The position numbers and the translations under genes are program-made. This document shows, in pieces, positions 48,280 to 51,361 of a DNA stretch of 64,000 nucleotides. How positions within the stretch are numbered: the first letter of the stretch is position 1; each line of letters opens with the position of its first letter. Under the pieces are notes generated by a model, which was not told the DNA's origin, did no database searches, and saw only the letters and a program-made list of their open reading frames with translations. Source of the DNA: Psychrobacillus psychrodurans (lineage in GTDB: Bacteria; Bacillota; Bacilli; Bacillales_A; Planococcaceae); NCBI GenBank assembly GCA_900114885.1, contig FOUN01000010.1:1-64000 (forward strand), given 5' to 3'.

Positions 48280-49263
48280 ATGAATGGTTTGCTAAAAAAA
48301 GTAAAAGAGGATATTTGGTTAGGTCGGACCGATCATCTTGAGAATAGAACAAGTTTCCGGTATCACCAAATTGTTGAATTGGAACAAATAGAAAAGCTTG
48401 AATCCTTAAACGAAACTTGTGTAATTATCGGCTTTGAAAGTGAAGAGGGTGTCCGTAGAAATAAAGGTCAACTAGGAGCTGCAAAAGCACCTAACGCATT
48501 ACGGTCAGAATTGGCAAAGCTACCCTGGAAACTTTCTAAAGAAAAACGTCTTGCAGATATAGGGACAATTGAGTGTATTGGAAATGACTTAGAAAAATCC
48601 CAAAAACAACTTGGGGAAGTAGTTAACGAAGTTCTAAATAAAAAAATGATCCCGATTATTCTTGGCGGCGGTCATGAAACCGCTTACGGACATTATCTCG
48701 GTGTTCGAAATCATATTGGAGAAGATGCAAAATTAGGGATTATCAATATTGATGCACACTTTGACTTACGGCCATACGATGTACAGACTTCTTCGGGGAC
48801 GATGTTCAGACAAATACTTGAACAAGATGAAAATAGTAATTATTTCGTTCTTGGTATCCAACGATACGGGAATACACAAGAGCTATTTGACAAGGCAGAT
48901 GAATTAGATGTTACCTATATTTATGAAGAGGAAATGCATCGTGGACAGTTTGAACAAGTAAATACAGCTTTAGAGAAGTTCATCCAAAAACATGACTATA
49001 TTATGCTGACATTATGTACAGATGTACTAAACGCTGCATTTGCACCTGGTGTAAGCGCTCCATCACCTTTTGGTTTGGATCCGACTATTGTTCGTGCGAT
49101 TATCAAGGCAGTAACTTCCCATGATAAGGTGTTGTCTTTTGATATTTCCGAAGTAAATCCGACCATGGATGAAAATAATCGAACTGTAAAACTTGGAGCA
49201 TATTTAACAAATGAAGCAATTACATCATTTTTAGGAGGAAGAAAGAATGACACTAGCTCTTGA
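48280..49263 (+). CDS. hutG: formimidoylglutamase
   Basis: 327 residues of the arginase/ureohydrolase family. It turns N-formimino-L-glutamate into L-glutamate and formamide, the last step of histidine breakdown. Manganese ligands lie in GGGHETAYGH and NIDAHFDLRPY. The third site reads LCTDVLNAAFAPGVSAP, with Cys for the usual first Asp; I believe this is normal for HutG of this subgroup. The gene is alone, without hutH, hutU or hutI. ATG 48280 touches AAAGG; TTG 48289 is better spaced. It overlaps gltS by 17 nt. Confidence 0.88.
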   Translation: MNGLLKKVKEDIWLGRTDHLENRTSFRYHQIVELEQIEKLESLNETCVIIGFESEEGVRRNKGQLGAAKAPNALRSELAKLPWKLSKEKRLADIGTIECIGNDLEKSQKQLGEVVNEVLNKKMIPIILGGGHETAYGHYLGVRNHIGEDAKLGIINIDAHFDLRPYDVQTSSGTMFRQILEQDENSNYFVLGIQRYGNTQELFDKADELDVTYIYEEEMHRGQFEQVNTALEKFIQKHDYIMLTLCTDVLNAAFAPGVSAPSPFGLDPTIVRAIIKAVTSHDKVLSFDISEVNPTMDENNRTVKLGAYLTNEAITSFLGGRKNDTSS

Positions 49264-50440
49264 CCAAATTACAACAATCTTTCTTTCCATAGCACTTTTG
49301 GTTTTAGGTACATACCTAGTAAAGAAGGTTGGATTTTTAAATAAGTTCTGTATACCCGCTCCAGTGGTAGGTGGATTACTATTTGCATTCCTCGCTACAA
49401 TAGCCAAATCGTTTGGTTTGTTTGAAGTTACTTTGGATACATCTTTACAAGGATTGTTTATGCTTACCTTTTTTACTACAGTTGGCTTAGGCGCAAGTTT
49501 TAAACTGGTTAAATTGGGTGGGAAGTTACTAGTTATTTACTGGCTAGCTTGTGGATTTTTAGCGCTTGCACAAAACACAATTGGTGTGTCTATGGCATAT
49601 TTGTTTGACCTTCACCCTTTAATAGGAATGATGGCTGGAGCAGTTTCAATGGAAGGTGGACACGGTGCAGCAACTGCATTTGGACAAACTGTTGAAGACT
49701 TGGGCATTAATTCGGCACTTTCTATCGGTGTAGCAGCTGCTACGTTTGGTCTCGTTGCAGGGGGACTTATTGGAGGGCCAATAGTTAAATATCTTGTTAC
49801 AAAGTATGATCTGAAATCAACGGAAACGGATGTTGATACACCACAGATTGATCTTGAGGAAAATAATAAAGCAATCAAAACGAATACATTTTTCACACAA
49901 CTACTGCTAATCACTTTCTGTATGGCACTTGGTACATACTTAGGAGGCTTGTTCTCCTCAGCAACAGGATTTGTTCTTCCTGGATACGTTGGGGCTATGT
50001 TTGTAGCAGTTATCGTGAGAAATATTGTAGATAAGGTTAATCCTAAAACCGTAGATATGAAAAGTATCGGTTTAGTAGGTGACATTTCTTTAGGTATCTT
50101 CTTATCCATGGCACTAATGAGCATTAAACTATGGGAAATAGCGGATTTGGCGCTTCCTTTAATCGCAATCGTCATTGTCCAGGTTATATTCATTGTTCTT
50201 TTCGGTATCTTTGTTTTGTTCCGTCTATTAGGAAAAGATTACGATGCTGCTGTAATGGTAGCAGGATTCACGGGACATGGCTTAGGTGCAACGCCTAATG
50301 CAATGGCGAATATGGCTGCTGTAACCGAAAGATTCGGCCCATCGAAAAAAGCATATCTAGTCGTACCAATTGTTGGAGCATTCCTCATAGATGTGTTTGC
50401 AATGCCTATTATTATTACGACAATTAACTTATTCCAATAA
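49247..50440 (+). CDS. gltS: sodium/glutamate symporter
   Basis: 397 residues with about ten to eleven membrane helices in two inverted halves. The GltS motifs are visible: IPAPVVGGLLFA, the re-entrant GAVSMEGGHGAATAFG and its echo AGFTGHGLGATPNAMANM. The family takes up glutamate with sodium. The start overlaps hutG by 17 nt and AGGAGGAAGAAAG precedes it, so translation is coupled. Pairing with hutG suggests that the substrate may be glutamate or formiminoglutamate. Confidence 0.92.
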   Translation: MTLALDQITTIFLSIALLVLGTYLVKKVGFLNKFCIPAPVVGGLLFAFLATIAKSFGLFEVTLDTSLQGLFMLTFFTTVGLGASFKLVKLGGKLLVIYWLACGFLALAQNTIGVSMAYLFDLHPLIGMMAGAVSMEGGHGAATAFGQTVEDLGINSALSIGVAAATFGLVAGGLIGGPIVKYLVTKYDLKSTETDVDTPQIDLEENNKAIKTNTFFTQLLLITFCMALGTYLGGLFSSATGFVLPGYVGAMFVAVIVRNIVDKVNPKTVDMKSIGLVGDISLGIFLSMALMSIKLWEIADLALPLIAIVIVQVIFIVLFGIFVLFRLLGKDYDAAVMVAGFTGHGLGATPNAMANMAAVTERFGPSKKAYLVVPIVGAFLIDVFAMPIIITTINLFQ

Positions 50441-50449
50441 ACGATAAAT

Positions 50450-50481
50450 AATCCCTTGTTCATGTTGTTGAACAAGGGATT
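50450..50481 (+). terminator. gltS terminator hairpin
   Basis: AATCCCTTGTTCA/TGAACAAGGGATT stem with a 6-nt loop; the T tract is weak (TAATTAT). Confidence 0.65.
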
Positions 50482-50488
50482 AATTATC

Positions 50489-50515
50489 GTCCTTGAACAT
50501 TCGTGTTTGTTTGCT
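50489..50515. repeat. fragment of the dispersed element, copy c
   Basis: GTCCTTGAACATTCGTGTTTGTTTGCT matches the right-hand part of the element at 47198 without the terminal TACACAGGGA. Confidence 0.5.
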
Positions 50516-50535
50516 AAATCAAGAACAATCAACAA

Positions 50536-50719
50536 CTTGCGATTTGTGTTCCTGAACTTGCGATTTCTCGAAAGTATATTGCGATTCTCGAGGTAGACCT
50601 TGCGATTAGAAGCACTTGACTTGCGATACGCACAAAAACATGAGTCAACTTGCGATTTGTGTTCCTGATCTTGCGGTTTTCCGAAAGTATCTTGCGATTC
50701 TCGAGGTAGACTTTGCGAT
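50536..50719. repeat. phased array of TTGCGAT boxes, 21-bp period
   Basis: Nine boxes start at 50537, 50558, 50579, 50600, 50621, then 50650, 50671, 50692 and 50713. Eight read TTGCGAT and one reads TTGCGGT. The spacing is exactly 21 bp except one 29-bp step. Spacers differ within a block, but block 2 repeats the spacers of block 1 (GTTCCTGA, CCGAAAGTAT, TCTCGAGGTAGA). It is not coding in any convincing way and is not a CRISPR. Confidence 0.85.
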
Positions 50720-50753
50720 TCGTATTACTTGTACCCAACACAAGAGTGAATAA

Positions 50754-51149
50754 TCACCCCATCGCTTCATACAACTTCGTTAAAGCCTCATAACGCTCCG
50801 CATCAAAATCCTTCTGACCGCGCATAAACTTTTCTTTTAGATTAAAATAACATATCTCAAAATATTCCTCGTTATGATGATGAATGAAAGGATGCACCAC
50901 CTTCTCGTTAGATCCATCTCCGAAGTAACGCTCCATTTTATCTATCGTGCGAATATTAATATTGCGTGAACGCATTTCATGCAAAACAAGCTGGGTATAG
51001 GCAAACAAATCGTCTTTTGAATAGTCATAAATATAGTTAATCAAAATATGACGGTCTTCCTTTGCAAAAATACTATTCAATTCACGCCACTGTGCCAACA
51101 GTTGGGATTTCGGCAAAACGTTTAGTAAACTGTGGTGCCATAAACGCAA
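50754..51149 (-). CDS. pyrimidine dimer DNA glycosylase-like protein (TIGR02328-like)
   Basis: 131 residues beginning MRLWHHSLLNVLPKSQLLAQ, the hallmark of small proteins related to T4 endonuclease V (Pyr_excise) and grouped as TIGR02328. In endonuclease V the N-terminal residue attacks the damaged base; activity of this subgroup is not proven. TTG start with AGGAGGTG upstream. The HHHNEEYF block near residue 90 is His-rich. A broken copy of the 5' end lies just upstream. Confidence 0.72.
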   Translation of the reverse strand: MRLWHHSLLNVLPKSQLLAQWRELNSIFAKEDRHILINYIYDYSKDDLFAYTQLVLHEMRSRNINIRTIDKMERYFGDGSNEKVVHPFIHHHNEEYFEICYFNLKEKFMRGQKDFDAERYEALTKLYEAMG

Positions 51150-51247
51150 AAAATCACCTCCTGTTCAATCTATTGTAATGATAACAAAATAATTTCACTT
51201 TTATGTTCATAAAACCTTCCAGTAATGATAGAAGTGGGGGGAAATCC

Positions 51248-51361
51248 AATTCACGCCATTGGGCCAGCAGTTGGGATTTAGGCAAAAAGCTTAGTAAACT
51301 GTGGTGCCATAAACGAAAAAAATCATCTCCTGTTCAATCTGTTCTGCAGTAATGATAACAA
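51248..51361 (-). pseudogene. duplicated 5' fragment of the glycosylase-like gene
   Basis: Repeats about 115 bp of the intact gene (51068-51187), covering its start region and first 27 codons. The reading is FRLWHHSLLSFLPKSQLLAQ, with the start codon changed (TTG to TTT) and the upstream site weakened (GGAGATG). After the WRE codons it runs into unrelated sequence. It is not expected to be expressed. Confidence 0.8.

Follow-up and report, generated by a model that had tools for sequence, protein, structure and literature searches.

A phased array of nine short boxes in Psychrobacillus psychrodurans was confirmed as a real, non-random feature. Judged from sequence comparison, its boxes are probably clustered sites to which a NERD-domain protein binds; the gene of this protein lies beside degU, elsewhere on the chromosome. 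Within the genus Psychrobacillus, NERD genes are physically linked to arrays with a 21-bp step, and the boxes of these arrays are specific to the NERD clade. The array would thus belong to an apparently undescribed chromosomal system, in which a NERD gene stands beside its own array and arrays with the same box are scattered over the genome. If this is true, the NERD system supplies a protein, and hence a testable cause, for a class of phased intergenic repeats.

The array between gltS and the glycosylase-like gene

The window, i.e., the whole analyzed stretch of 64,000 nucleotides, contains the features listed in Table 1. The first-pass annotation had described nine TTGCGAT boxes here. Nine boxes are present and eight of them read TTGCGAT, but box 7 is TTGCGGT; in box 5 the next base is A in place of T. 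The steps were as claimed (21, 21, 21, 21, 29, 21, 21 and 21 bp), and the proposed block duplication of about 113 bp was borne out by a period of 113 bp (4 x 21 + 29) and by the recurrence of the block 1 spacers in block 2, which by eye was close for units 1-3 and loose for unit 4. The location between gltS and a DNA glycosylase-like gene was confirmed by Pfam matches.

Table 1. Features of the array region (positions in the window).
Feature	Position	Strand	Support
Phased array, nine boxes, 113-bp higher-order unit (4x21+29) and partial second unit	50535..50741	+	
Box 1, TTGCGATT	50537..50544	+	
Box 2, TTGCGATT	50558..50565	+	
Box 3, TTGCGATT	50579..50586	+	
Box 4, TTGCGATT	50600..50607	+	
Box 5, TTGCGATA, last before the odd 29-bp step	50621..50628	+	
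Box 6, TTGCGATT, opens the second block	50650..50657	+	
Box 7, TTGCGGTT, variant	50671..50678	+	
Box 8, TTGCGATT	50692..50699	+	
Box 9, TTGCGATT	50713..50720	+	
gltS, sodium/glutamate symporter, left neighbour of the array	49247..50440	+	Pfam PF03616, E 4e-134
Inverted repeat, probable gltS terminator, between gltS and the array	50441..50490	+	sequence reading
Pyrimidine dimer DNA glycosylase-like (Pyr_excise) gene, right neighbour, convergent to gltS	50754..51149	-	Pfam PF03013, E 4e-16

Five exact adjacent box pairs were observed in the window against a mean of 0.00 in 100 shuffles, therefore the array is not due to chance. A scan for 6-mers occurring three times in phase gave a single lag-21 cluster in the 64 kb, the array itself, and no cluster at eight other lags within 17-25. 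The array was absent from the output of Tandem Repeats Finder on the window, presumably because the box alone is conserved.

Some other repeats were seen in the same stretch. Positions 42-749 hold a 287-bp tandem repeat of 2.4 copies; by eye, its unit looks like 5S rRNA to which a terminator-like tail is attached. Just upstream of the complete glycosylase gene, the start of its region is repeated as a partial second copy (51240-51345, by eye). A degenerate imperfect-hairpin element, of the CCTGTGTAAGAAAC...GCTACATAGGG type in relatives and possibly a small MITE, is located in the gltS-array interval (about 50492-50527). By eye it recurs in further intergenic regions (L218 and L219 after gltS; L225, L226 and L230).

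Recurrence, phasing and inheritance of the arrays

The genome-wide search suggested by the first-pass annotation gave 36 exact adjacent pairs in the own genome (G000), 18 per strand, against 0 in the reversed control. Using the 16-base form with two mismatches allowed, there were 104 pairs against 4 in the control. The comparison in related species, suggested there as well, found exact box pairs in 16 of the 19 Psychrobacillus genomes. Similar arrays, whose absence had been named as a sign of a chance minisatellite, are thus present in both the genome and its relatives. G000 holds eight TTGCGATT loci with at least three boxes, a ninth that is doubtful (C8:140963), and some TAGCGATT loci. No functional theme was seen among the genes flanking the own-genome arrays; apart from gltS, identified by Pfam, we take these neighbours to be degSU, ilvD, cggR, hisZ-like, SCO1-like and other genes. 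GTTGCG arrays were detected in 13 of the 19 genus genomes, G000 being without any. A single array (L318, G013:C11:377621-377977) joins two box dialects, of the GTTGCGAGTA and CTTGCGATT types.

Outside the genus, 14 of 82 genomes had one exact pair each, which is near chance since the reversed control scored in 7 of the 82. The shorter core TTGCGA, as three boxes, was found in 32 of 261 family genomes belonging to 7 of 19 genera, and the letters flanking this core differed among them. The reversed control of the core (AGCGTT at 21 bp) had several matches in G103 (20), G139, G255, G271, G272, G277 and others, which may be arrays with yet other boxes. When the exact three-box pattern was searched over genome contigs, many unrelated phyla and nine viral contigs appeared among the matches listed; these we take to be repeat-protein genes or cyanobacterial heptamers.

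The steps were pooled over the retrieved loci, made non-redundant by sequence. Among 989 steps, 864 were 21 bp, and the others were 17-20 (78), 22 (1), 28-30 (15), 36 (1), 38-40 (19) and 42 bp (11), with none at 23-27 or 31-35 bp. The commonest odd steps, 18, 29 and 40 bp, differ by 11 bp or about one helical turn. Together with the empty ranges, this indicates helical phasing. The step lengths were phase-locked across box dialects, and higher-order repeats of 102 or 113 bp occurred in arrays with unrelated spacers.

The step spectrum also bears on whether the array could code a repeated peptide, which we regard as scarcely credible. The window array has one minus-strand frame free of stops, and codon-type conservation on that strand had been named beforehand as evidence against binding sites. 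However, the 29- and 40-bp steps shift the frame, as do all of the 47 among the 989 steps that are not multiples of 3, making coding unlikely. A function as RNA (small RNA, terminator or 3' UTR element) would agree with the position of many arrays 3' of genes, but it is highly improbable: the folding of the window array was not unusual on either strand (z -0.87 and +0.84), the surrounding 901 bases had no Rfam match at gathering score, and the array sits beyond the gltS hairpin. Flanking gene directions, taken from a simple frame caller that called frames on both sides of 90 of 98 arrays, were convergent in 37, codirectional in 45 and divergent in eight, and in the 45 codirectional cases the orientation of the array to the genes was mixed (25 and 20), which again argues against an RNA.

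Boxes and spacers evolved differently. In six G000 arrays (78 units; the own arrays L013 and L267 contributed none), the eight box columns were 0.88-1.0 identical, and the spacer columns 0.24-0.34, near chance, apart from one column at 0.63. This contrast is partly circular because six of the eight box columns served for detection; the two unused columns (TT) had identities of 1.0 and 0.94. In eight orthologue pairs with 66 matched units, the boxes differed by 0.076 per site and the spacers by 0.214, a value that understates spacer change since the units were matched by spacer similarity. One of these pairs, L077/L316, displayed equal rates for box and spacer.

After arrays sharing a 50-mer with a kept array had been dropped, by which L217 was removed, 81 arrays (from 16 genomes and one doubtful assignment) were retained. 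Among these, 56 formed 14 groups matching in both flanks, and 13 groups crossed species. All of the 103 both-flank array pairs, a few of them within one split array, had the same orientation and none was inverted. Many arrays therefore keep their place and orientation across species despite changed spacers. G004 contains an orthologue of the window array, including both flanks, and arrays lie beside a right-hand flank similar to that of the window in G005 and G007; in G008 and G009 the gltS-glycosylase junction had no array. In G012 (L231 and L237), the gltS-like gene appears split into two open frames.

These comparisons also speak to a repeat of the minisatellite kind, selfish or neutral, that no protein binds and that expands through slippage and block duplication. 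Block duplication is evident, the junction array is present in G000 and G004 and absent in G008 and G009, and L077/L316 diverged equally in boxes and spacers, as such an origin would allow. Nevertheless, it fits poorly with conserved box columns, including the two unused in detection, beside own-array spacers near chance identity, with the lower divergence of boxes in orthologous units and with steps phase-locked across dialects, and we consider it quite improbable.

NERD-domain genes beside the arrays

The array beside degU (L003) adjoins the gene of a 305-aa NERD-domain protein (G000:C22:11183-12097, outside the window). The NERD domain (PF08378) was matched at aa 31-143 with E 1.2e-15 and 58.4 bits, against a curated cut-off of 22.1, and no second Pfam family was found at E 0.001. 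The nearest NERD match on the contig of the window lies about 96 kb from the array. The four 21-bp units of the window were compared with this NERD-linked array, and 31 and 30 of 52 spacer positions matched in register, compared to 9-19 of 52 in rotated registers and at most 26 in 20,000 shuffles. Such in-register agreement points to common ancestry, and by this sequence comparison the two arrays were shown to be homologous.

The degU-linked protein had 102 matches in the 19 genus genomes, of which 68, from all 19 genomes, were used for counting. Broken or cut NERDs (L364, L369 and L373) were excluded from the 68, which include four with an in-frame stop (L372, L386, L398 and L409), two of these among the array-linked loci. 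An array was scored when a 6-mer occurred three times in phase within 800 bp, with twelve other lags within 15-27 as control. Lag-21 arrays were found 3' of the NERD gene in 47 of 68 loci (other lags 0-2), 5' in 13 (other lags 0) and on either side in 54 (other lags 0-2). L347 and L356 contain many CGCAA words, the strict triple being absent 3', and no array was found at L393, one of the three own-genome NERDs. In 20 loci the 800 bp 3' of the gene held four or more CGCAA or TTGCG words; CGCAA predominated in the NERD sense in all 20, and the orientation of the array relative to the NERD gene is constant in these loci. The association of NERD genes with arrays within the genus is strong.

Paralogous NERD genes have different boxes (ATCGGATAAT, TTGGACAAT, ATCGCTCAATCT, CGAGACCAAT, AGCAACCAAT, AATCGCTAGAAT, CGCAAC and AATCGCAA), and paralogues with different boxes in one genome offer a natural set for the study of protein-box co-evolution. 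Over 47 array-linked NERDs, box similarity rose with protein identity (r 0.68; none of 2000 permutations as high). The correlation was alike for the NERD part and the C-terminus (r 0.69 and 0.68), and an attempt to separate the co-variation of the two with the box gave no separation. Since both parts track the box equally, the correlation is explicable by joint inheritance of the gene and its neighbouring array. The E, D, E-x-K and Q positions, which we take to be the catalytic set, were invariant in all 68 NERDs examined, so the degU-linked protein has the residues expected of a PD-(D/E)xK nuclease and may be regarded as a putative nuclease. Four cysteines are nearly invariant (0.98-1.0 of 54), suggesting a putative zinc ribbon, and the C-terminus may have a DNA-binding role.

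Two box searches mostly fitted the expectations from the NERD genes. The AATCGCTA box (TAGCGATT on the other strand) was found among the examined NERDs only in G000 (L269) and G004 (L398, whose matched region has a stop in frame at codon 2). Exact TAGCGATT pairs occurred in G000 and G004 only of the 19 genomes, including sites far from the NERD gene; as the G000 arrays were already known, this test rested on G004 and the other 17 genomes. In G000 these arrays make up a second family with a 21-bp step, comprising L269 (G000:C46:147404-147747), beside another NERD gene, and a remote array (L270, G000:C16:96505-96575). Pairs of ATTCGACC were expected in G005, G008 and G010 and found in all three, and additionally in G007 (2 pairs) and G015 (1 pair), both without a cognate NERD among the NERDs examined.

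Several genomes do not fit NERD-box pairing simply. G004, G005, G007, G008 and G013 contain TTGCGATT arrays, yet their NERD closest to the own one has a GTTGCG box, and in G008 this NERD is broken. G015 and G010 also contain TTGCGATT arrays, and the box of the closest NERD is somewhat different (TTGCGA[AG]TA type; TAACGCAAAC). In these misfit genomes, a NERD with a AATCGCAA box was not found among the NERDs examined, which are a subset of all. Cross-recognition of the shared TTGCG core, a further NERD or orphan arrays are possible explanations.

The arrays might alternatively bind a host nucleoid, segregation or replication protein, the NERD genes being merely frequent neighbours. Helical phasing, the frequent position at gene ends (see the flanking directions above) and the retention of many arrays at the same loci across species would suit such a protein. 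We nevertheless consider it unlikely, because boxes vary by NERD clade, lag-21 arrays adjoin most of the NERD loci examined and the two searched boxes occur mostly in genomes with a NERD bearing that box. Clade-specific boxes and NERD adjacency are not predicted by a single housekeeping binder, which is therefore disfavoured. The earlier proposal of repeated phased binding sites gains indirect support from the recurrence, the step spectrum, the kept boxes with changed spacers and the NERD link. For the specific kinds it had suggested, a replication iteron or nucleoid-protein sites, the evidence points elsewhere, as the arrays track NERD-domain genes.

Known systems, proposed mechanism and NERD loci outside the genus

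Iterons and ParR/parC-type centromeres are direct-repeat binding sites in helical phase. Unlike these, the present arrays occupy several chromosomal loci per genome with a NERD gene beside some of them, and no replication initiator or segregation gene was seen beside the window array (gltS, Pyr_excise) or, in translations read by eye, beside eight further own loci. CRISPR arrays likewise combine regular spacing, conserved boxes and variable spacers. Here, however, the boxes are 7-8 bp, the 13-bp spacers are block-duplicated and the linked family is NERD; judged only by eye, none of the open frames beside nine own-genome loci resembles a cas gene.

The nearest known parallel is the REP/RAYT (TnpAREP) REPtron. 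REPtrons are described as a domesticated enzyme gene with high-copy cognate repeats and enzyme-repeat co-evolution, in which HuH enzymes process the palindromic REPs in single-stranded form (PMC8266576). The NERD genes likewise have their own repeats nearby and dispersed, presumably cognate, repeats. In contrast to the palindromic REPs, the NERD boxes are direct repeats, for the most part not palindromic, that recur every two helical turns, and the linked protein is a PD-(D/E)xK-type NERD (PF08378) rather than a HuH (Y1) transposase-like enzyme. Inspection of TTGCGATT, TTGGACAAT and CGAGACCAAT showed no palindrome, and 73 TTGCGA-type arrays contained 559 forward boxes (at most one mismatch) against 5 exact inverted TCGCAA words. 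A few boxes have partial symmetry (AATCGATCG; TAGCGATTCTTCGCTA units).

By Pfam score and active-site residues, the degU-linked protein belongs to the known NERD proteins. A cell-division protein of staphylococci (PMC9040797) and a rare system of defence type (PMC12458937) contain NERD, in both cases without a stated link to repeat arrays in the portions of text considered. In the titles and abstract openings of open-access papers, no literature on such boxes or on NERD genes with repeat arrays was found. No anti-phage defence family scored above its cut-off; PADLOC gave one weak match (E 0.025) for three NERD proteins, and the NCBIfam model MAD6, with its cut-off at 460, scored 29.5 bits across aa 18-210, a stretch that includes the NERD domain. 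A phage or plasmid origin was also considered and rejected: with the L139 NERD protein as query, tblastn matched one plasmid record weakly and no phage record, and scanning viral contigs with the L109 NERD protein confirmed none.

With steps of 21 bp, or two helical turns, all boxes of a run would face the same way on the helix, allowing several copies of the protein to sit next to each other, and odd steps lying whole turns apart (18 + 11n) would rotate the groups of boxes each by about the same amount. Binding of the box by the NERD protein, cooperative assembly, possibly cutting, and some benefit to the cell would be parts of this mechanism. Arrays would grow by block duplication. Since the window array shares ancestry with the NERD-linked array, units have probably been copied between loci; how and in which direction this happened is conjectural, and cutting or repair might drive the duplication and spread of the arrays. 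More generally, we favour, with some reservation, a model in which each NERD-type PD-(D/E)xK protein recognizes a box private to it, both beside its gene and in arrays dispersed elsewhere. Protein and array would evolve together, with the enzyme itself building, spreading or maintaining the repeats. This would be a mostly non-palindromic, double-stranded counterpart of the REPtron, in Psychrobacillus and a minority of the NERD loci sampled in related genera and other families of Bacilli.

Outside the genus the NERD-array link is weaker and concerns a minority of NERD loci. Among 40 such loci chosen by hand, strict lag-21 arrays were found 3' in seven and 5' in five (other lags 0-3). With a looser score (threshold 0.86, our own choice, set after the strict results had been seen), the counts were 5 and 7 for lag 21 and 4 and 2 for lag 20, with none at five other lags. 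The strict 3' matches were all within the own family, with 0 in the 20 loci from other families. In these 20 loci, strict 5' matches numbered three and came from a single family (G350 and G338); L470 matched at lag 20, and L475 matched 3' under the looser score. Arrays with a 20-bp step were seen beside the NERD genes of L470, L478, L485 and L492. A series of 61 CGCAA words in Ureibacillus acetophenoni stops about 40 bp short of a NERD gene.
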